From a virus: a stretch of 41,124 nucleotides of DNA. This document shows positions 3 through 8,680 of this stretch, in pieces; position 1 is the stretch's first letter; every line of letters begins with the position of its first letter. The position numbers and the translations under genes were made by a program. The stretch spans positions 1-41,124 of IMG/VR virus record IMGVR_UViG_3300044616_000690; one strand, written 5' to 3'. Below the pieces are notes generated by a model that was given only the letters and a program-made list of their open reading frames with translations, did no database searches and was not told the DNA's origin.

Positions 3-404
3 TTCAATGTATATTATGGCGATTTAGAGTCAATTCTCCGAGTCAACTATAAAACATTATCAGAATTAAACAGTGCTTTGATCAAATATTTCTTAAATGT
101 AATGGAAATCAAAACACAAGTTGTATTTTGTTCTGAAATATGTCCCAAGGAAGTTTCTGGTGGCGAGCGTATAATGTATTTATTGAAGAATTTAAATGCT
201 ACAAAATATATTTCTGGCACTGGTCCAGGCTCAATGAGATATATAAATGAACAAGAGTTCAAAGATAATAATATAGAATTGATTTGGCAACATTATAATC
301 ATCCAAAATATACACAATTATATGGTGACTTTAAGCCATATATGTGTATAATAGATTTATTGTTCAACGAAGGTACAAATAGTAAAAGTATAATTTTAAG
401 TTAA
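3..404 (+). CDS. WbqC-like family protein (3' part, cut by window edge)
   Basis: The frame is open from base 3 with no start codon, so the gene begins outside the window and 133 C-terminal residues are seen; the ATG at 78 is internal. The C-terminal signature of the WbqC family is clear: YISGTGPGSMRYI, then NHPKYTQLYGDFKPYM, then IDLLFNEG before the end. WbqC-like proteins are encoded in O-antigen and other surface-glycan loci; their chemistry is not settled, so no reaction is assigned. The stop is followed after one base by the ATG of a PIG-L deacetylase (TAA-T-ATG), which implies translational coupling and one operon. The family call is firm; the role in a phage is inference. Confidence 0.85.
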   Translation, partial: FNVYYGDLESILRVNYKTLSELNSALIKYFLNVMEIKTQVVFCSEICPKEVSGGERIMYLLKNLNATKYISGTGPGSMRYINEQEFKDNNIELIWQHYNHPKYTQLYGDFKPYMCIIDLLFNEGTNSKSIILS

Positions 405-405
405 T

Positions 406-1065
406 ATGAAACGTGTAATGGCAATAGGAGCACATCCTGATGATATTGAATTTGGTTGTGGTGGTACACTGTACAATCACAAATTAAAAGGCGATTACGT
501 AGTATACGTGTGTATGACCAACACAGAATCTGTGGACGGTACTAATGGAACATTATTAAGAACCGCAGAAGAAAATAAACTGGAAACCATTAATGCGTCT
601 AAGGTGTTGCAATGTGACGATGTGGAGTTCTTACCGTTCAAAGACTTACACGTGCCTTTTAGTTTTGACTCGGTAAGTAAACTTGAAAGCTTGATTAAAA
701 AGCACAAAGTAAATACAATTTATACACATTGGGCCGGAGATGCAAATCAAGACCATATTTCCACATTCAAGACTACGATGGCAGCTGCTCGATATGTTCC
801 CAACGTATTATGTTATGAACAAATACCCATTTCCAGAATGACAGAGAATCAAATGGATATAAATTACTATGAAAATATAGATAACGCATTTGATAAGAAA
901 ATTGAAGCTTCTATGTGTCATAGAAGTCAGATTTCAAAATATGAAAAAGTTGGATTAAATGTAAAATCTAACCTAGAAATACTAGCAAGATTTAGAGGTA
1001 TACAAGGTCAATGTAAATATGCAGAGGCTTTTAAGGTACTGAAAATGATAAACGCACACCTATGA
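406..1065 (+). CDS. PIG-L/LmbE family N-acetyl sugar deacetylase
   Basis: A 219-residue protein of normal PIG-L length. It opens with the family zinc motif AHPDDIEFGCGG (His10 and Asp13 as ligands) and has the later motif HWAGDANQDH, with His117 as the expected third ligand. Family members are Zn-dependent deacetylases that remove the N-acetyl group from GlcNAc-type sugars (GlcNAc-PI, mycothiol precursors, LPS sugars). No signal peptide is seen, so it should act in the cytoplasm on a sugar nucleotide or lipid-linked sugar. It sits one base after the WbqC-like gene and overlaps the radical SAM gene by four bases. The substrate cannot be read from the sequence. Confidence 0.9.
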   Translation: MKRVMAIGAHPDDIEFGCGGTLYNHKLKGDYVVYVCMTNTESVDGTNGTLLRTAEENKLETINASKVLQCDDVEFLPFKDLHVPFSFDSVSKLESLIKKHKVNTIYTHWAGDANQDHISTFKTTMAAARYVPNVLCYEQIPISRMTENQMDINYYENIDNAFDKKIEASMCHRSQISKYEKVGLNVKSNLEILARFRGIQGQCKYAEAFKVLKMINAHL

Positions 1066-2138
1066 ATATTGAATTTGACGTAACACTGCAATGTAATTTT
1101 AGTTGTCCTAGTTGTAATAGACATAGTAATTTTAATGCATTAACAGATCCATTTGACAAAGATAATGCAGCTGGTCTTAATTACTATGAAAATACCAACG
1201 TAACAATGGATCACGTTGATAAATTGATATCCGATTGTAAAAGACAAGGTAAAATTGAAAGAATACATATCATTGGAGGCGAACCACTGACGCATCCAAA
1301 TATTTCTGATATAGTAGATAGACTACGTGATAATTTGTGGGGAGATCCAGTTCCAAACATTGTTATTATTTCAAATTTACACCCCAAAATGTTAAAGGCG
1401 GGTACTTTAGACACTCCAGATCGTGTTATCAAGTATTTCCCATTTGATAAAGTTGATAAGATTAAGTTATCATACATCGATCACATAAGTCCTATTTTCA
1501 AATCAATTGCACAATATCTAAATGATAGTCAAATCACAAAAGATCAATTGATTCCCAATCTGGATAAACTAGTATTTGAAATGCCAAATCAAGTATCACT
1601 GACAGAGTTACTATCAAAAGTAAACTTTTTCAGAGGCATACCAGTTACTAATTTCACCCCACTAGATGAAAAAGGAGAAATACATCGTTGTAGCTTAGTG
1701 GCTCCATATGATTCTGGTCAAGAAATGATTCCACAGTGCAATATTCCAAATAGATGTGGGGTAAATTATTCATTTGATGGATATTGGCCTTGTTCAAATG
1801 GATCTGCTATAGCGAGATTGTTCAAATTAAATGGATACAACCGTAAAGATTTGCCTGATGATTTTACAGATTGGTCCGGCGTAAATGAAAAAGGTAACGC
1901 TGAAATTAATAAAAAATCAGGAATGTGGGATATGTGTAAAATGTGTCAAGTAGCTGCTAAAAATAAATTAGCAGAAAAAGATCACGGACGACCAATCTCT
2001 ATTAGTTATAGAAAAGCACTGGGGTTGGAAAAATCAGATGAATCGTTATCAGAATATGTTATCGAAAAACATTCAAAGAGACTAGCAACTGCAGCTATTC
2101 TAAAAGAAGGTATTTGCGTAGACGATAAATGTACTTAA
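1062..2138 (+). CDS. Radical SAM enzyme with C-terminal Cys cluster
   Basis: A 358-residue protein whose first residues contain the CxxxCxxC [4Fe-4S] site (Cys11, Cys15, Cys18 in QCNFSCPSC), followed by the SAM-binding GGEP motif at 72-75. The C-terminal half is cysteine-rich (Cys residues around CSLVAPYD, QCNIPNRC, YWPCSNG and MCKMCQ), suggesting a SPASM/twitch-like auxiliary cluster. It should generate a 5'-deoxyadenosyl radical; the substrate is unknown. The start overlaps the stop of the deacetylase gene (ATGA), and the next gene follows after one base. Its position between a sugar deacetylase and glycosyltransferases suggests a sugar or glycan-linked substrate, but this is inference. Confidence 0.88.
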   Translation: MNIEFDVTLQCNFSCPSCNRHSNFNALTDPFDKDNAAGLNYYENTNVTMDHVDKLISDCKRQGKIERIHIIGGEPLTHPNISDIVDRLRDNLWGDPVPNIVIISNLHPKMLKAGTLDTPDRVIKYFPFDKVDKIKLSYIDHISPIFKSIAQYLNDSQITKDQLIPNLDKLVFEMPNQVSLTELLSKVNFFRGIPVTNFTPLDEKGEIHRCSLVAPYDSGQEMIPQCNIPNRCGVNYSFDGYWPCSNGSAIARLFKLNGYNRKDLPDDFTDWSGVNEKGNAEINKKSGMWDMCKMCQVAAKNKLAEKDHGRPISISYRKALGLEKSDESLSEYVIEKHSKRLATAAILKEGICVDDKCT

Positions 2139-2139
2139 T

Positions 2140-3084
2140 ATGATACTCAAAGTAAATCCAGAATTTGGCATTGAATTGGCACTAGCTATACCTTTTGCTT
2201 ATTGGTTACATCAAAACAAACAATTGGATGGTGTAGTTACTAGTAAAGGAATGAGACCATACTATTTCTTCTGTGACAATGTAAAAGAAGAATTTCTAAC
2301 CAGAACAATCGATAATAATCTGGCGTTAGCAGAAGTGCCAAATAAATGGATTCACCATAACTCACTAGCAGTTACAGGCAAAGAATATCACCATCTAACA
2401 ACTGAAGAACAAGAACAAGTTAATGGTGTGTTGGATTACACCAAGTGGTCTAGTCCTCCTTTTAAAGAATATTATCAAAACGACGAATATAAATTTGATA
2501 AACCCGTGGTATTTATAACAAACAAATATAATATGGAACACGGAGAAATTCCTCTGGGATATTTTAACATTCCTTGTTTATATGAAATGTTTGATTATTT
2601 TAAAGAAAAAGGATATCTTGTAATATACAAGAGAGCTACTAATAAAGAAAAAGAATTTACTATAGACCAAAACGAATACAATTCATTACAACAAGGTTAC
2701 CACGATATTAAAGCTAATGTAGAAGGAATTGGAACTATAACAGACTTTGAATTGTGCAAATATTTTGATAATGTAATTTTAATAGACGATTTGGTAAAAC
2801 AATCAAAGTATAGTTACAATGAAACCCAACTTAAATTAATGGCAAATTGCAGCAGATTTGTTACAGTTTGTGGCGGAAATTCAATATTATCTTCACTTTT
2901 TGGAGGCACAGTTATTAGTTATATACATAAGGGAAAAGAATTACGCCCTAATTACTTTGGGCCTAATAGTTATTTCCGTAAGCTTTCAAACGCTAACGTT
3001 ATTCCTGTAATAGACAAAAGTGTTGTAAAGACAGGAATCCACGATTATAGTGAATTGATGCATCAAATAAAAATACAGTTTTAA
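2140..3084 (+). CDS. Probable GT-B-fold glycosyltransferase-like protein
   Basis: A 314-residue soluble protein. I do not recognise a named family with certainty. The C-terminal third has a nucleotide-sugar-binding-like stretch (LMANCSRFVTVCGGNSILSS, then FGGTVISYIHKGKE), reminiscent of the donor domain of GT-B enzymes such as fucosyltransferase-like or heptosyltransferase-like proteins. The middle part (VVFITNKYN, then KGYLVIYKRA) fits alternating beta-alpha units of a Rossmann domain. It starts one base after the radical SAM gene and is followed two bases later by a GT2 glycosyltransferase. The glycosyltransferase call rests on fold-like pattern and neighbours; no catalytic residue can be named. 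Confidence 0.5.
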   Translation: MILKVNPEFGIELALAIPFAYWLHQNKQLDGVVTSKGMRPYYFFCDNVKEEFLTRTIDNNLALAEVPNKWIHHNSLAVTGKEYHHLTTEEQEQVNGVLDYTKWSSPPFKEYYQNDEYKFDKPVVFITNKYNMEHGEIPLGYFNIPCLYEMFDYFKEKGYLVIYKRATNKEKEFTIDQNEYNSLQQGYHDIKANVEGIGTITDFELCKYFDNVILIDDLVKQSKYSYNETQLKLMANCSRFVTVCGGNSILSSLFGGTVISYIHKGKELRPNYFGPNSYFRKLSNANVIPVIDKSVVKTGIHDYSELMHQIKIQF

Positions 3085-3086
3085 AT

Positions 3087-4289
3087 ATGAAAATTAGTTT
3101 TATCCAACCCAGCAGAAACAACTTAAAATATCTTAAGTGGAGTTACGAAGCTATTCGTAAAAATTTAAGTCATAAAGAACACGAAGTTTGCGTAGCTGAC
3201 GATTTTAGTAACGACGGCACCTTGGAATGGTGTAAAGAAACTGCAGCTAAAGATCCATACTTTAAGTTCATACGTAACCACGGACCAACCAGATTGGGTC
3301 ACACAATTCTATACGACCGTCTTATAAATGAAGTTGCTACCAATGAGGTTGTGATGATCTATCACGCTGATATGTACGCCTGTCCTAACTTTGATAAATA
3401 TGTAGAAAAGTATATTCAACCAGGCACAATCGTAAGTCTAACTCGTATTGAACCACCTTTACATCCTCCCGGACCAGAAAAGATCGTTCAAGCATTTGGA
3501 ACTGAGCCAGAAGAGTTTAATGAAGCTGGATTATTGAAATGGTTCAATGATACCCGTTTGACCAGAAAAGATAAAACCACAGAAGGAATCTTTGCGCCAT
3601 GGGCCCTTTATAAGAAGGATTTTCAATCAATTGGTGGTCACGATGATCTTTATGCTCCTCAGAGCAAAGAAGATAGTGATATTTTTAACCGTTTCCTATT
3701 AAATGGATATAAGTTTGTACAAACGTGGGAGGGATGTGTATATCATATGACCTGTAGAGGAAGTAGATATAATCCAACTCTAACCACAGTTGGCAAAGAA
3801 AGCGACGAATGGTTGGCACAAAACAATCGAAGTGCCAGAAACTTTATTCGTAAATGGGGACACTTTGTTAAACACAATGATACTATGAAGCCAATTGTGC
3901 CAAAACGTTATGATGTTGGATTTGTAGTACGTAACTGTGACGAATACAAATTGGCTTTGTTGGAACCTTGGTGTGACACCATTTATACCGATGTACCATA
4001 TGACCGTTATATTAATATCGAACAGAAAAATACCAAGTTTGATTTGAATAAAAAACTCAAACGATATGAAGTACCAAAAACAAATGATATCATCGTAGAG
4101 TTTGATGCAACTAAGTTATCAAATGAAAGTTTTGAATTTTTCAATATGATTCAACTGATGTTAGAAGATAGCGGTCAAATAGGCACTTTAGAATTTGACA
4201 TCTTCAAACTGCACATTAATAAATTACAAGATTATAGCAAACAATTAATTGAAATAAAAGACGAATGGTATAACAAAAAATTGTTATGA
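3087..4289 (+). CDS. GT2-family glycosyltransferase with extra C-terminal domain
   Basis: A 400-residue protein. Residues 1 to about 115 are a GT-A nucleotide-sugar domain: ISFIQPSRNNLKYL at the N-terminus, VADDFSNDGTLEW, and a DXD-like HADMYACPN. Later GT2 features follow: WALYKKDFQSIGGHDD, then the acidic KEDSDIFNRFL and a YHMTCRG segment. After about residue 265 comes an extra domain of some 130 residues (YDVGFVVRNCDEYKLALLEP onward) that is not part of the GT2 core. The enzyme should transfer a sugar from a nucleotide donor; acceptor unknown. Its stop overlaps the start of a small membrane protein (ATGA). It is the most conventional sugar-transfer enzyme of the cassette. Confidence 0.85.
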   Translation: MKISFIQPSRNNLKYLKWSYEAIRKNLSHKEHEVCVADDFSNDGTLEWCKETAAKDPYFKFIRNHGPTRLGHTILYDRLINEVATNEVVMIYHADMYACPNFDKYVEKYIQPGTIVSLTRIEPPLHPPGPEKIVQAFGTEPEEFNEAGLLKWFNDTRLTRKDKTTEGIFAPWALYKKDFQSIGGHDDLYAPQSKEDSDIFNRFLLNGYKFVQTWEGCVYHMTCRGSRYNPTLTTVGKESDEWLAQNNRSARNFIRKWGHFVKHNDTMKPIVPKRYDVGFVVRNCDEYKLALLEPWCDTIYTDVPYDRYINIEQKNTKFDLNKKLKRYEVPKTNDIIVEFDATKLSNESFEFFNMIQLMLEDSGQIGTLEFDIFKLHINKLQDYSKQLIEIKDEWYNKKLL

Positions 4290-4456
4290 AAAAATTGATA
4301 GAAATTTGGAAAAATACGTTCTTAAAGTATTTTGATATAAATCAAAATGGTAAATTAGATCATTTGGAAATAGTATTTTTCTTATGTTTATTAATTGCGT
4401 ACAACTTGTTTTTTCAAATATTAGGTAACTACATTTACGATCTTATAAAAAAATGA
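4286..4456 (+). CDS. Small membrane protein with a canonical EF-hand loop
   Basis: A 56-codon gene between two coupled genes: its ATG overlaps the preceding stop (ATGA) and its TGA overlaps the next ATG in the same way, so it fills the gap exactly. Residues 17-28 read DINQNGKLDHLE, a textbook 12-residue EF-hand calcium loop (Asp1, Asn3, Asn5, Gly6, hydrophobic 8, Asp9, Glu12). Amphipathic residues precede it. A hydrophobic segment follows (IVFFLCLLIAYNLFFQIL), likely one transmembrane helix, ending with basic residues. It may be a membrane-anchored calcium-responsive protein. The function is unknown, but coupling on both sides makes it a real gene. Confidence 0.8.
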   Translation: MKKLIEIWKNTFLKYFDINQNGKLDHLEIVFFLCLLIAYNLFFQILGNYIYDLIKK

Positions 4457-4830
4457 ACTTAACTGATTACAATATACCGCTTATATTTTGGGTATCATTC
4501 ATTTTGGTGATTTGGTTAAACAGCGATATAGTACACACAATCGCTAAATTAACAAACACTAAACGTCTATTAAAAATAGATGAATACCAATTGTATAAAT
4601 CAACCGTGGATCCAATGTCAACATATCCCAATTTTTTATATGCTGAATACCCAGGTTATTTTACTAAATTAATAAGTTGTGTGATTTGTTTGTGTTTTTG
4701 GTCGAGCTTATTTAGCGTGGGTATATTACTATTAGTTTTAAACTATCCGTTATACTATGCAATTATGTTGTTTCCAATTAACTACATTTTCAGTTTGTTT
4801 TTATATTTAATAATAAATAAATTATTATGA
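4453..4830 (+). CDS. Multi-pass membrane protein, unknown function
   Basis: A 125-residue hydrophobic protein. I predict helices at about 8-24, 72-92 and 94-122, separated by a polar loop with several Tyr and Pro residues. A conserved-looking CVICLCFWSS motif starts the second helix and recalls the Cys/Trp motif of small phage membrane proteins such as DUF1360 members, but I cannot confirm membership. It is coupled by ATGA overlaps to the EF-hand gene upstream and the Cys-rich gene downstream. In a glycan cassette it could be a partner that presents or flips substrate at the inner membrane, or a superinfection-exclusion protein; both are guesses. Confidence 0.7.
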   Translation: MNLTDYNIPLIFWVSFILVIWLNSDIVHTIAKLTNTKRLLKIDEYQLYKSTVDPMSTYPNFLYAEYPGYFTKLISCVICLCFWSSLFSVGILLLVLNYPLYYAIMLFPINYIFSLFLYLIINKLL

Positions 4831-5108
4831 TTATAGGAAGTTTTGTTGCATTAAACAATTTGGTATCCAAAGATAATATCGGCGCATTTGCGCCTTTAAC
4901 AAATTGTATACAAACATTTGATAAAATCTGTTCGTGTCAAAAACAAAGAAAAACACTAAAGCACGATGAATGTAATAAAATTTACATTAATACAGTTACA
5001 GCCGTAGCTCCTTCTTTGGTTGATTACTTTAAAACAAAAACCACTGATGAAGAAATTATATTCTATCACAGTGGTCATAATTTGATTACCAAACTCAAAT
5101 TGCGTTAA
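4827..5108 (+). CDS. Small cysteine-containing protein, unknown
   Basis: A 93-residue soluble protein with four cysteines in the middle (NCIQTFDKICSCQKQ, then HDECNKIYIN), which could bind a metal. No family is recognised. It starts inside the end of the membrane-protein gene (ATGA) and is the last gene of the + strand operon. Its 3' end overlaps the 3' end of the convergent dNMP kinase gene by 14 bases, leaving no room for a separate terminator. Confidence 0.65.
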   Translation: MIIGSFVALNNLVSKDNIGAFAPLTNCIQTFDKICSCQKQRKTLKHDECNKIYINTVTAVAPSLVDYFKTKTTDEEIIFYHSGHNLITKLKLR

Positions 5109-5736
5109 TAACCTTCAACGCATTTAAAACATTTTCTCTGATGTAGGGATACTCCTCCAATATAGATCCATTCAATTTATCACTACAATCTTCCCATTCA
5201 AAAGCGCAGTCTGCTTTTGCTTTTACTTTTGGATCATTGATCATTTCGTGATCGTTTGGCGCTGAATTATAAATCTTAACTATTTTGTTTTTACTAAACC
5301 TTCTGCCTGAAGGTACAGGTTCTTGTTTGTATTTGGTAATATGAACTAACTTACCACTTTGTTTTTGTTGCAACCAAGTACATTCATCTTGTGGATACAC
5401 ATCGTATCTGATATCAGTTATAAAAACCACATCTGCAGTAGATTGTTTAATCTTTTCTTCAATTTTACCAGTCCAATATCTACCCTCAGATACCTTTCTC
5501 ATAACATCACCATAAGCAACCAATAGTGGTCTAATAATATTCTTCTCATTGGTGTTCTCTGTAAATACATCAATACCCACCTTGGACTTGATAAGATCTT
5601 TTAAATCGTTCTTCAACTCATATGCCAATGCATACTTTTCGGTTTTGAGACCTTGTTCAATCAAAAGTTTTTGAGCAACAGTAGTAAATAAATCTTTACC
5701 ACTACGAGCAAATCCAGATACACCTATAATTTTCAT
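5095..5736 (-). CDS. Deoxynucleoside monophosphate kinase (T4 gp1-like)
   Basis: A 213-residue P-loop kinase. The start at 5736 is chosen because the protein then opens with MKIIGVSGFARSGKD, putting the Walker A site (GFARSGKD, residues 8-15) where T4 gp1 has it; the 14 extra residues from an upstream in-frame ATG would overlap the preceding gene. A DIRYD motif follows mid-protein. It should phosphorylate dNMPs to dNDPs in the cytoplasm, feeding replication together with NrdA/NrdB. Its ATG lies one base after the stop of the gp62-like gene (TAA-T-ATG). Substrate range, including any modified base, cannot be read. Confidence 0.8.
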   Translation of the reverse strand: MKIIGVSGFARSGKDLFTTVAQKLLIEQGLKTEKYALAYELKNDLKDLIKSKVGIDVFTENTNEKNIIRPLLVAYGDVMRKVSEGRYWTGKIEEKIKQSTADVVFITDIRYDVYPQDECTWLQQKQSGKLVHITKYKQEPVPSGRRFSKNKIVKIYNSAPNDHEMINDPKVKAKADCAFEWEDCSDKLNGSILEEYPYIRENVLNALKVINAI

Positions 5737-5737
5737 A

Positions 5738-6211
5738 TTATTTAAATAAATTCTCCACTTCTTTCTCGCTATATCCAAAACCTTGGATCAACTCACATAA
5801 TTCTTTTAAGTTGTTGTCAGAAGCAGTATAAACACTATAATAGTCTATTGCATCACGTTTGCCAATTTTATATTTGTCACAGATGCAATCTAGTATTGTA
5901 TTATTAATACCCTCGGTACTATTCTTGATATACTTACAGAACTTTCTACCTTTTGGTACCAAATCAATCAATACTTGATAAAATTGTTCTTCTGGAATGT
6001 TCTGAAAATGTTTGGATATAAAAGATACTTCTTCTATAATATCAGCATCCATACTTAAGAATCTAATCAACATATATTTGTTGAAAGACTTCTTCTCCTC
6101 TTCAGAAAGAGAAGTGTAGTAGTTTTTGTTTTTTACCTCCCGAATATGATTTACATGATCAAATAAACCACGAACTTTAACTTTGTTTTCGGATGTTTTC
6201 TTTGCTTTCAT
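5738..6211 (-). CDS. 62: Sliding-clamp loader small subunit (T4 gp62-like)
   Basis: A 157-residue protein matching T4 gp62 in order and spacing of motifs: LVPKGRKFCKYIK corresponds to the gp62 VPRGKRYGKW region, and DKYKIGKRDAIDYYSVYT to its KRYQVNTNDAINY region. A Lys-rich N-terminus precedes GLFDHVNHIREV. gp62 joins four gp44 ATPase subunits to load the gp45 clamp. Neither gp44 nor gp45 is next to it here, unlike in T4. The ATG lies 35 bases inside the end of the upstream membrane-protein gene, and no better start exists before Met47. Recognition is from remembered motifs, not an alignment. Confidence 0.8.
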   Translation of the reverse strand: MKAKKTSENKVKVRGLFDHVNHIREVKNKNYYTSLSEEEKKSFNKYMLIRFLSMDADIIEEVSFISKHFQNIPEEQFYQVLIDLVPKGRKFCKYIKNSTEGINNTILDCICDKYKIGKRDAIDYYSVYTASDNNLKELCELIQGFGYSEKEVENLFK

Positions 6212-6780: not shown

Positions 6781-7692
6781 TCAAATTTTGAATTCTTTTT
6801 CAAACCGTTCAATAGCATAATCCTTAGCTTTGAACTCAAACTCTACATCAACGTCATTTTCAAATAGTTCTTTATGTAAAATATATACATAATCTGAATG
6901 TGCTCGATCTGTTGGATCAGATCTGCCATTACTGTAATGAAATAATGGTTTATATTTACCCCAAGTTTCCATACACATTAAGATGGCTTTTTCAGGAGAA
7001 ATATTTTCTGGATTATTCAATCTAAAATGATGTGAGTCATAAGTAATAGGGATTCCTGTTTTTTGATAGATCAGATCATAAAGCTTAATCAATCCCCAAC
7101 TATTGGGTTTATCTTCTAATTCAAGAACGAGACGAGACTTAACATTTGCAGGAAAATCATTGTATACATCAATAAATCGTTTAGCAATATCCTTGGTATT
7201 GCCTTTGTAACAATTCATATGAATATTGATTGGAGATTGGTATGACTGTGGCAAACCAAACAAATCCATAATTGAAGCGTGGTTTTTTAATTCCACAATA
7301 GATTTTTCTACCACAGACTTGGTAGCACTCGCTGGTACAACAAACTGATCTGGATGTGTACTGCACCGAACATTGTATTTTTTAATTATATCAGCAGCAA
7401 TTTTAAATTCTTGCACAATTAGATTGTAATCTGGCAGAATATCAAATGACAAATTTGCTTCGGGTAAAGTCGCTAAAGGAAACAAGTCACTACTAATTCG
7501 ATAGTTCCAATTTCTAATACCGCAAAATTCAATAGTTTTGCGTGTAACAACCACATTGTTAAGTGTACGTTTTGAAACGGTAGATAAAGCTTCTTTTCGT
7601 TCCAAAGCAAGAAATTTAGTTTTGGTCATCGTGTTAGCTCTAACACTTTGTTCTTGCAGTTTGAGAGAAATACAACATAGAGATTTTTTCAT
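6781..7692 (-). CDS. uvsE: UV damage endonuclease (UVDE, TIM barrel)
   Basis: A 303-residue protein of usual UVDE length. Family motifs are in order: LCCISLKL at the N-terminus, GIRNWNYRISSDLFPL, STHPDQF, INIHMN, LELEDK, TYDSHHF, HYSNGR, HSDYV and VEFEFKAKD. The His, Asp and Glu residues supply the metal cluster of the barrel. UVDE nicks DNA 5' of UV photoproducts and some other lesions, starting an alternative excision repair. The first ATG is chosen because the family pattern begins within the first residues. The promoter -10 lies only nine bases upstream of the ATG, so the mRNA should be nearly leaderless. It is probably an early gene protecting phage DNA in sunlit water. Confidence 0.92.
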   Translation of the reverse strand: MKKSLCCISLKLQEQSVRANTMTKTKFLALERKEALSTVSKRTLNNVVVTRKTIEFCGIRNWNYRISSDLFPLATLPEANLSFDILPDYNLIVQEFKIAADIIKKYNVRCSTHPDQFVVPASATKSVVEKSIVELKNHASIMDLFGLPQSYQSPINIHMNCYKGNTKDIAKRFIDVYNDFPANVKSRLVLELEDKPNSWGLIKLYDLIYQKTGIPITYDSHHFRLNNPENISPEKAILMCMETWGKYKPLFHYSNGRSDPTDRAHSDYVYILHKELFENDVDVEFEFKAKDYAIERFEKEFKI

Positions 7693-7732: not shown

Positions 7733-8680
7733 TTAAGTCCACGGATACAAAGGCAACTTATACTTGGTACCGCCTATCATTATTCCCACATATCCAGCAA
7801 TTGGACTTCCAGCACCACTAATAAACATAGAATTTGAACCAGTAATAGCATTAAACAATTGTAATGTGCCATTTACCAATAATTTATCATCGATTCGCCC
7901 ACTACTTCCTGTTATTTGATCAAAACCAGCATAACCACCTGTTACTTGAGTAAAACCAGCATAACCACCACTAATACTACCAGTAAATTGGTTGGCCGTA
8001 AATTTGCCTGTTATTTTGCCATTGCTACCACTTAATTTATTAAAATTAGCTCTACTGCCACTAATACTAGATGTTATTGAAGTTGCAATAACTCTACCAG
8101 AAATTCTAGCAGAAGAACCGCTTAATTTGTTAAAGTTAGCTCTGCTGCCACTAAAACTGCCTGTGAAAGATCCTGTGAAATTACCTCTTACTTGTTTGGA
8201 ATAAAAATGTGTATAACTTCCAGGTGCGCCGGTACCAATTTTTATTGTAGTAGCAGCACTAGCAAAATCTATTGTTGTAGGTGTACCCAACAACAAAGGC
8301 GAAACATTGGTACTATCAATATCGCCACCTGCGTTTATACTGCCGTTAGTAGATAATGTATTTGAAGAAGCATCATATGACAACGATGTATCTAATCCAA
8401 GAATTTTCTGACCACTGCCATTTGAAAAAACCAGATATTTAGTACCACTTGCAGCAGACTGATCTTTAATAAAATTGCTACCACTGAAACTACCTGTGAA
8501 ATTCGTAGCAATTACTTGTCCCAATTTGGTTACTTTGAATTTTGTAACACTCCCAAGTTGCAAATCTATTAGTTTACTTGTACTATCTGATGGTCCAGCG
8601 TCCGCTACATTCATCTTTATCGCAGTCTGATCTCCAGACCCGAATGTAGCGGTCATTGCATTGATTGGGGTATTCGCCAT
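7733..8680 (-). CDS. Repeat-rich tail fibre-like protein
   Basis: A 315-residue Gly/Ser/Thr-rich protein with internal repeats. The unit GSRANFNKLSG occurs twice 30 residues apart, NFTGSF/SGS variants recur, and GYAGFTQVTG is followed by GYAGFDQITG. This composition is typical of beta-rich fibrous phage adhesins. The C-terminal end (YVGIMIGGTKYKLPLYPW) resembles the short terminal motif of marine phage fibre proteins. A role in host recognition at the virion tip is likely but inferred. Two overlapping TATTTATA motifs precede the start, fitting late expression. Confidence 0.7.
   Translation of the reverse strand: MANTPINAMTATFGSGDQTAIKMNVADAGPSDSTSKLIDLQLGSVTKFKVTKLGQVIATNFTGSFSGSNFIKDQSAASGTKYLVFSNGSGQKILGLDTSLSYDASSNTLSTNGSINAGGDIDSTNVSPLLLGTPTTIDFASAATTIKIGTGAPGSYTHFYSKQVRGNFTGSFTGSFSGSRANFNKLSGSSARISGRVIATSITSSISGSRANFNKLSGSNGKITGKFTANQFTGSISGGYAGFTQVTGGYAGFDQITGSSGRIDDKLLVNGTLQLFNAITGSNSMFISGAGSPIAGYVGIMIGGTKYKLPLYPWT
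7922..7969. repeat. Tandem 18-bp repeat in the fibre gene (30-bp period)
   Basis: The 18-mer aaaaccagcataaccacc occurs at 7922-7939 and again at 7952-7969. It encodes the paired GGYAGF units of the fibre-like protein. Confidence 0.9.
8031..8154. repeat. 90-bp-period repeat in the fibre gene
   Basis: The 34 bases at 8031-8064 recur at 8121-8154 with three differences by eye, all A/G transitions. They encode the repeated SGSRANFNKLSG unit and suggest 30-residue modular growth of the fibre. Confidence 0.8.

Follow-up and report, generated by a model that had tools for sequence, protein, structure and literature searches.

Large gene clusters for lipopolysaccharide (LPS) or other glycans have been described in T4-like aquatic myoviruses, including the cyanophages P-SSM2, S-SSM7 and S-SM2, and whether these cyanophage clusters are functional or "stuffer DNA" was left undecided (Sullivan et al. 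2010, PMC3037559). Phage-encoded enzymes can also act on the phage particle itself; according to Freeman et al. (2023, as cited in PMC12619734), mycobacteriophage transferases glycosylate the capsid and the tail tube. Here, we describe a set of eight genes at positions 3-5108 of the IMG/VR virus record IMGVR_UViG_3300044616_000690, a stretch of 41,124 bases that we refer to as the window. The set is part of a phage glycan island, in which it belongs to a sugar cassette that is real, selected and modular. The enzyme families are ordinary ones; what is new is the modular exchange of the cassette together with a linked transferase, and an optional radical SAM step. We would give an even chance to the full reading, in which the set forms the far end of an island for phage glycan synthesis, with a swappable sugar cassette and a cytosolic acceptor that is most likely a virion protein.

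A longer contig of the same phage (L002, 132,463 bases; its radical SAM protein is 100% identical to that of the window) extends the locus to the left by 3,995 bases. It adds the rest of the WbqC-family protein (229 residues when complete, L002:3710-4399; PF08889, 9.1e-66), a DegT/PseC-like aminotransferase, an atypical short-chain dehydrogenase/reductase (SDR2), a PseB-like 4,6-dehydratase and a 185-residue methyltransferase-like protein. The conserved cassette consists of the PseB-like dehydratase, SDR2, the PseC-like aminotransferase, WbqC, a PIG-L-type deacetylase and, optionally, the radical SAM enzyme. A search for the same gene order, which the preliminary description of this DNA had proposed, was made among 35 viral loci obtained from a scan with an alignment of the 314-residue protein of the set (GT314). 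Eleven records, that of the window's phage and ten others, share one order, PseB-SDR2-DegT-WbqC-PIG-L-(radical SAM)-GT314; two of them (L014 and L016) are near-identical, and the number of lineages is therefore somewhat lower. The genes in these records overlap or have small gaps between them, and one record has two inserted methyltransferases. As independent viral contigs show this order and spacing again, the gene set is not a product of chance.

About 20 further loci have other sugar genes between the upstream transferases and GT314 plus the GT2-family transferase that follows it (GT2). These cassettes include a TylCIII/NovU-type C-methyltransferase (PF08484), a UDP-sugar dehydrogenase and a formyltransferase, with GMD and a carbamoyltransferase nearby. 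We built trees for 30 phages, gave the carriers of the window's cassette the label type A and shuffled the labels 500 times. In the GT314 tree, the type-A carriers form one clade (1 change; support 98/99; 100% of the bootstrap trees; none of the 500 shuffles as low), whereas the GT2 tree requires 7 changes, a number reached or undercut in 89 of the 500 shuffles. This difference shows that GT314 is inherited with the sugar cassette and that GT2 is common property. Within the window's subclade, GT2 is 86-93% identical across cassettes, and GT314 falls to 39-67% between phages that differ in gene content there. The synonymous sites are near saturation, which implies that GT2 is under constraint and that GT314 is either replaced or diverging fast, with no recent exchange; the idea that the high identity of GT2 across cassettes (88-90%) marks a recent recombination anchor was rejected on the same ground.

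Purifying selection acts strongly on the sugar genes and on both transferases. In comparisons of the window's phage with L014/L016, with synonymous divergence (dS) near 1, the ratio of nonsynonymous to synonymous divergence (dN/dS) is 0.018 for the PseB-like gene, 0.05 for SDR2, 0.024 for DegT, 0.035 for both WbqC and PIG-L, 0.065 for GT314 (upper end of the range 0.066) and 0.033 for GT2; the controls, a deoxynucleoside monophosphate (dNMP) kinase and the clamp loader, give 0.117 and 0.041. It could be argued that host LPS genes were taken up by chance and kept merely to fill the head, given that gene content is highly variable among relatives and that the matter was left standing for P-SSM2 and S-SSM7 (PMC3037559). 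However, the low dN/dS values (0.02-0.07) lead us to reject stuffer DNA, and it also speaks against this idea that distant phages keep the genes tightly coupled and in a fixed order. So do the catalytic residues, which are invariant across the phages (PseB D126-K127-Y135-K139, DegT K186 and, in 13 phage copies, the AHPDD motif and H117 of PIG-L). We therefore give this explanation almost no credence. For this lineage, the 2010 question is answered by the selection on the genes, by their conserved order and by a transferase that follows the cassette: these are working parts.

Inside the window, the genes of the set and its boundary are as follows.

3-404, plus strand: 3' part of the gene for a WbqC-family protein (PF08889, 1.8e-31), truncated at the 5' end by the edge of the window
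406-1065, plus strand: PIG-L-type de-N-acetylase, 219 residues (PF02585, 4.8e-22; diacetylchitobiose deacetylase structure 8bgn, 7.9e-14)
1062-2138, plus strand: radical SAM enzyme, 358 residues (PF04055, 6.3e-8; twitch radical SAM model NF033640, 4.5e-8, core only)
2140-3084, plus strand: GT314, predicted GT-B glycosyltransferase with a GT9-like fold, 314 residues (AlphaFold2, pLDDT 94.8; Foldseek)
3087-4289, plus strand: GT2-family glycosyltransferase, 400 residues (Glycos_transf_2, PF00535, 4.5e-10)
4286-4456, plus strand: 56-residue protein with one hydrophobic stretch, seen by eye
4453-4830, plus strand: 125-residue small membrane protein with three hydrophobic segments
4827-5108, plus strand: 93-residue soluble protein with no predicted transmembrane segment, the final gene of the island
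5095-5778, minus strand: dNMP kinase (phrog_139, 3.2e-12), the boundary, convergent with the island and outside the cassette

The eight open reading frames were all found on the plus strand with the tight spacing described earlier, the junctions being, in order, +1, ATGA (-4), +1, +2, ATGA, ATGA and ATGA. The set and the kinase gene converge, one ending at 5108 and the other at 5095. Every large open reading frame of the window outside the set lies on the minus strand, as had been noted; this is not a general rule, since in L003/L005-type phages the island shares one strand with the genes for the clamp loader and the kinase. The two membrane proteins that had been claimed are recognisable in the 56- and 125-residue frames, and the 93-residue protein is not a third. 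The 125- and 93-residue proteins are conserved in the same six phages, the window's and L014, L016, L035, L043 and L046. The rest of the window is that of a T4-like myovirus, with an nrdA/nrdB-type reductase, UvsX/RecA, a gp41-like helicase, clamp-loader A and the dNMP kinase, several of them read by eye. A UvdE UV-endonuclease gene lies in this phage core near the island (6781-7692, minus strand).

The preliminary description considered the eight genes to be one machine. They do behave as one unit, a phage-borne glycan cassette, but the unit is not self-contained and forms the tail of a much larger island. In larger relatives (L003-L008), the island has about 20 or more genes, including GT1-, GT2- and GT8-type transferases, a Gfo/Idh/MocA-DAO fusion, methyltransferases and a DUF2334 deacetylase-like protein. 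A nucleotide-sugar pathway plus glycosyltransferases, the combination seen in bacterial O-antigen and capsule loci, is present.

One of the two glycosyltransferases named in that description is recognised by Pfam (GT2), and the other, GT314, by structure prediction only, as it has zero Pfam matches. The AlphaFold2 model of GT314 has a GT-B fold, and Foldseek places it closest to the GT9 structure 3tov (3.4e-5) and heptosyltransferase II (1psw, 1.2e-4); no sequence match to GT9 was found, either as a Pfam family or as a relevant PDB sequence. We confidently predict from the model that GT314 is a GT-B glycosyltransferase whose fold is nearest to the GT9 heptosyltransferases. A search of BFVD with the same model gave a close structural homologue in the giant virus Terrestrivirus (A0A3G4ZQV3; E 2.7e-22, 27% identity). 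A cellular origin was considered and dropped; the single distant relative (27%), in a metagenome-assembled genome, lies beside hopanoid genes and is uninformative.

The radical SAM protein scores above the Pfam cut-off (33.4 versus 29.5 bits). Its CX3CX2C motif (C11-x3-C15-x2-C18) is invariant, as are six further cysteines in alignment A1 (C210, C226, C232, C244, C292 and C295). The pattern C232-x7-G-x3-C244 ... C292-x2-C295 is twitch/SPASM-like, with no match to PF13186 and with NF033640 covering the core only. This gene is not the core of the set; it is an optional add-on, present in only four viral contigs that represent three lineages (L004 and L005 are 98% identical). It is absent from L014 and L016, whose sugar genes are 90-95% identical to those of the window and in which PIG-L is followed directly by GT314. 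The radical SAM proteins of the window and of L003/L005 are 60-62% identical, near the values for the neighbouring genes; the history is therefore simpler if L014/L016 lost the gene. The preliminary description named no described phage system with this exact set, and no isolate phage in INPHARED has the radical SAM or the 314-residue gene; tblastn searches of INPHARED with the radical SAM, GT314 and U329 proteins gave no match. Relatives of the radical SAM protein were also absent from the genome contigs, and plasmids yielded one core-only match. No paper linking radical SAM enzymes and pseudaminic acid to phage virion glycans was found. A Solidesulfovibrio radical SAM protein adjoining WbqC was set aside, as it has the core alone in common with the window's. 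Another phage glycan island, in L042, encodes a distinct radical SAM protein that has a SPASM match (L042:198-1211).

As for the pathway, the PseB-like enzyme would dehydrate UDP-N-acetylglucosamine to a 4-keto-6-deoxy sugar, SDR2 would modify the product, DegT would aminate the sugar at C4, WbqC would acylate the new 4-amine and PIG-L would take off the 2-N-acetyl group. Where present, the radical SAM enzyme would make one further change on the amino sugar, and GT314 would then add the finished sugar to a glycan begun by the conserved transferases of the island. Acylation is the probable role of WbqC, as judged from gene neighbourhoods. Cellular WbqC genes adjoin DegT aminotransferases in some genomes and PIG-L in another; one lies with PIG-L in a pse operon that has no annotated PseH-type acetyltransferase but a formyltransferase-like gene; others are near PIG-L and ATP-grasp genes in a nonribosomal peptide synthetase (NRPS) cluster, or with radical SAM and DegT genes. 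The fold of WbqC is predicted with a pLDDT of 90 and has no significant PDB match; Foldseek listed PanC, TyrRS, PPAT and RibF structures, all insignificant. A PanC-like ATP-dependent ligase of the HIGH superfamily was rejected (best PanC Foldseek E 0.054; hhalign probability 0.9%), and the first histidine of the HIGH-type motif is replaced in several cellular WbqC proteins, which makes it a weak lead at most. The cassette suggests two pairings of enzymes: beside PIG-L, WbqC would act as an enzyme that acylates sugar amines, and the radical SAM protein would be an amino-sugar enzyme of an undescribed kind.

WbqC genes are found in other settings as well. PIG-L adjoins WbqC in the Vibrio phage V-YDF132 (L011, 8324-9738), vB_VpS_PG28 and VH2_2019, and the V-YDF132-type pair lies upstream of a glycosyltransferase, a ParB-like gene and terminase, which looks like DNA modification rather than a surface glycan. 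Plasmids of Mycobacterium branderi (L067), Streptomyces vietnamensis (L066) and Virgibacillus (L068) have WbqC with PIG-L, DegT, radical SAM/SPASM, NRPS or ATP-grasp genes, two of them with major facilitator superfamily exporters; these clusters look like uncharacterised amino-sugar natural-product loci.

The acceptor is the least certain part of our reading. Flippases (PF01943, Polysacc_synt) and initiating transferases (PF02397, Bac_transf; PF00953, Glycos_transf_4) are absent from all seven phage contigs searched, with control genomes positive, and the islands have no large polytopic open reading frames. The lack of a flippase, a ligase and an undecaprenyl-phosphate transferase favours a cytosolic acceptor, a virion protein first, and in that case, the variable sugar would change the phage surface. 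The same absence bears on host-envelope remodelling, in which the sugar would be added to nascent host LPS or capsule by way of the host flippase and ligase and would block superinfection or alter receptors. WbqC, PIG-L, PseB/PseC and GT9-like enzymes characteristically occur in loci for surface polysaccharides, where cellular WbqC is also located; in addition, known phages change the O-antigen with single transferases, and there is a weak GtrB-like match (phrog_841). Yet the only membrane proteins in the islands are small, an initiating transferase, a flippase and a GtrA/GtrB-like membrane partner are all missing, and a lytic T4-like phage would, from general knowledge, have little time for remodelling. 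We regard envelope remodelling as unlikely, but as a serious possibility.

Several points weigh against a virion glycan with a swappable sugar. All seven contigs are linear and may be fragments, so that missing families are no proof of absence; the phage could borrow the host flippase and ligase; and the choice of acceptor is itself reasoned from missing genes. The chemistry of WbqC is derived from its neighbours alone, the fold hint being insignificant and the profiles unsupportive. Among NCBIfam models, the dehydratase is matched best by TIGR03589 PseB (174 bits versus an equivalog cut-off of 408) and the aminotransferase by TIGR03588 PseC (249 versus 424); both fall short, and so the assignment stops at "PseB/PseC-like" and the sugar configuration is not fixed. 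An ordinary nucleotide-sugar pathway with a known product was to count against the earlier reading of the set; a PseB/PseC-type route to a 4-amino-4,6-dideoxyhexose is recognisable upstream, but with no known end product.

A glycan attached to a modified base in the phage DNA, which would block restriction, is another candidate. The arrangement of a glycosyltransferase, ParB and terminase is associated with DNA modification, and the PIG-L/WbqC pair of V-YDF132 lies upstream of such a group; in the Arthrobacter phage DanielleIgnace, genes for a glycosyltransferase and ParB are found close to WbqC, and the window's island abuts a dNMP kinase. However, the nearest phages of 132 kb and 173 kb (G001 and G005) have no member of the thymidylate synthase/hydroxymethylase family (PF00303), the members in G002 and G004 retain the ThyA-type Asn, and a Tet_JBP search, run with no positive control, gave no match. 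Furthermore, six or more transferases with swappable sugars exceed any DNA glycan known to us. DNA hypermodification therefore seems improbable. Elsewhere, L050 and L051 encode thymidylate synthase-like proteins with inserted stretches (391-400 residues between stops versus a 266-position family model), and in G002 a DruA-domain protein (L006:6423-7190; PF14236, 90.6 bits versus a cut-off of 27) directly follows the dNMP kinase, with homologues in L007/L008, a Druantia-type domain within a phage genome.

The cassette might also be the front half of a pathway to a nonulosonic (pseudaminic-type) acid, the second half being supplied by the host or by distant phage genes. This idea fits the presence of PseB- and PseC-like genes, the bacterial pse operon that includes PIG-L and WbqC, and a sibling phage (G006) that has NeuB and a CTP-transferase-family gene, but NeuB and a CTP transferase were not found in G001, G002, G004 or G005, and those of G006 are in a separate, different gene group, which makes such an acid very improbable. 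That group (L069; G006:C1:29000-46000) is a second large sugar group with NeuB, two DegT aminotransferases, a CTP-transferase-family protein, a carbamoyltransferase and several SDR/Gfo-Idh genes.

Returning to the virion, a broader picture can be drawn tentatively, with somewhat more doubt than belief: a widespread lineage of aquatic T4-like phages would carry a virion glycan whose inner part is conserved and whose terminal sugar can be exchanged, the cassettes being swapped whole with their matching transferase as in bacterial O-serotype switching, and one variant would be a radical-SAM-modified amino sugar. If the target is the virion, these phages would vary their own surface in a serotype-like manner. 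A 315-residue Ser/Thr/Gly-rich protein with repeated F/I-TGS-FSGS motifs and no Pfam match (7733-8680, minus strand) has a counterpart of the same length at that position in L014/L016; it is conceivable as the glycan acceptor.

How, then, does this island compare with known systems? The pseudaminate operon on a plasmid of Mariluticola halotolerans (L055) also has pseB, pseC, PIG-L and WbqC together, but it differs in having pseF, pseG, a NeuB-family synthase and a formyltransferase-like gene. The 2-deoxystreptamine toolkits (BtrS/BtrD/BtrN, NeoL/NeoN) combine an aminotransferase, a PIG-L deacetylase and a twitch/SPASM-type radical SAM enzyme acting on amino sugars; the window's radical SAM protein has no sequence match to those structures, and the likeness is a lead only. 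To our knowledge, neither radical SAM nor WbqC genes occur in mycobacteriophage glycosylation clusters. Those phages offer a possible functional parallel through their phage-encoded transferases, although, as far as the cited account goes, their glycans were shown by experiment, whereas the window's island is known from genes alone.

The nearest cultured phage by polymerase and RecA is the Microcystis phage Mel-JY01 (44% and 49%), and by GT2, the Flavobacterium phage vB_FspM_immuto (MW353175; 48% over the protein length). The window's lineage is closer to these two than to the cyanophages mentioned at the outset, and it is in this lineage that cassette exchange with a linked transferase is seen. 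Immuto shares GT337 (43%), GT441 (50%), GT223 (52%), GT2 (48-50%) and an aminotransferase, and its PseB-like gene is 74% identical to that of another island; it lacks GT314, WbqC, PIG-L and the radical SAM gene and has a different sugar cassette. Both Mel-JY01 and immuto hold scaffold transferases of the island, which means that the acceptor question can be tested in a cultured phage.

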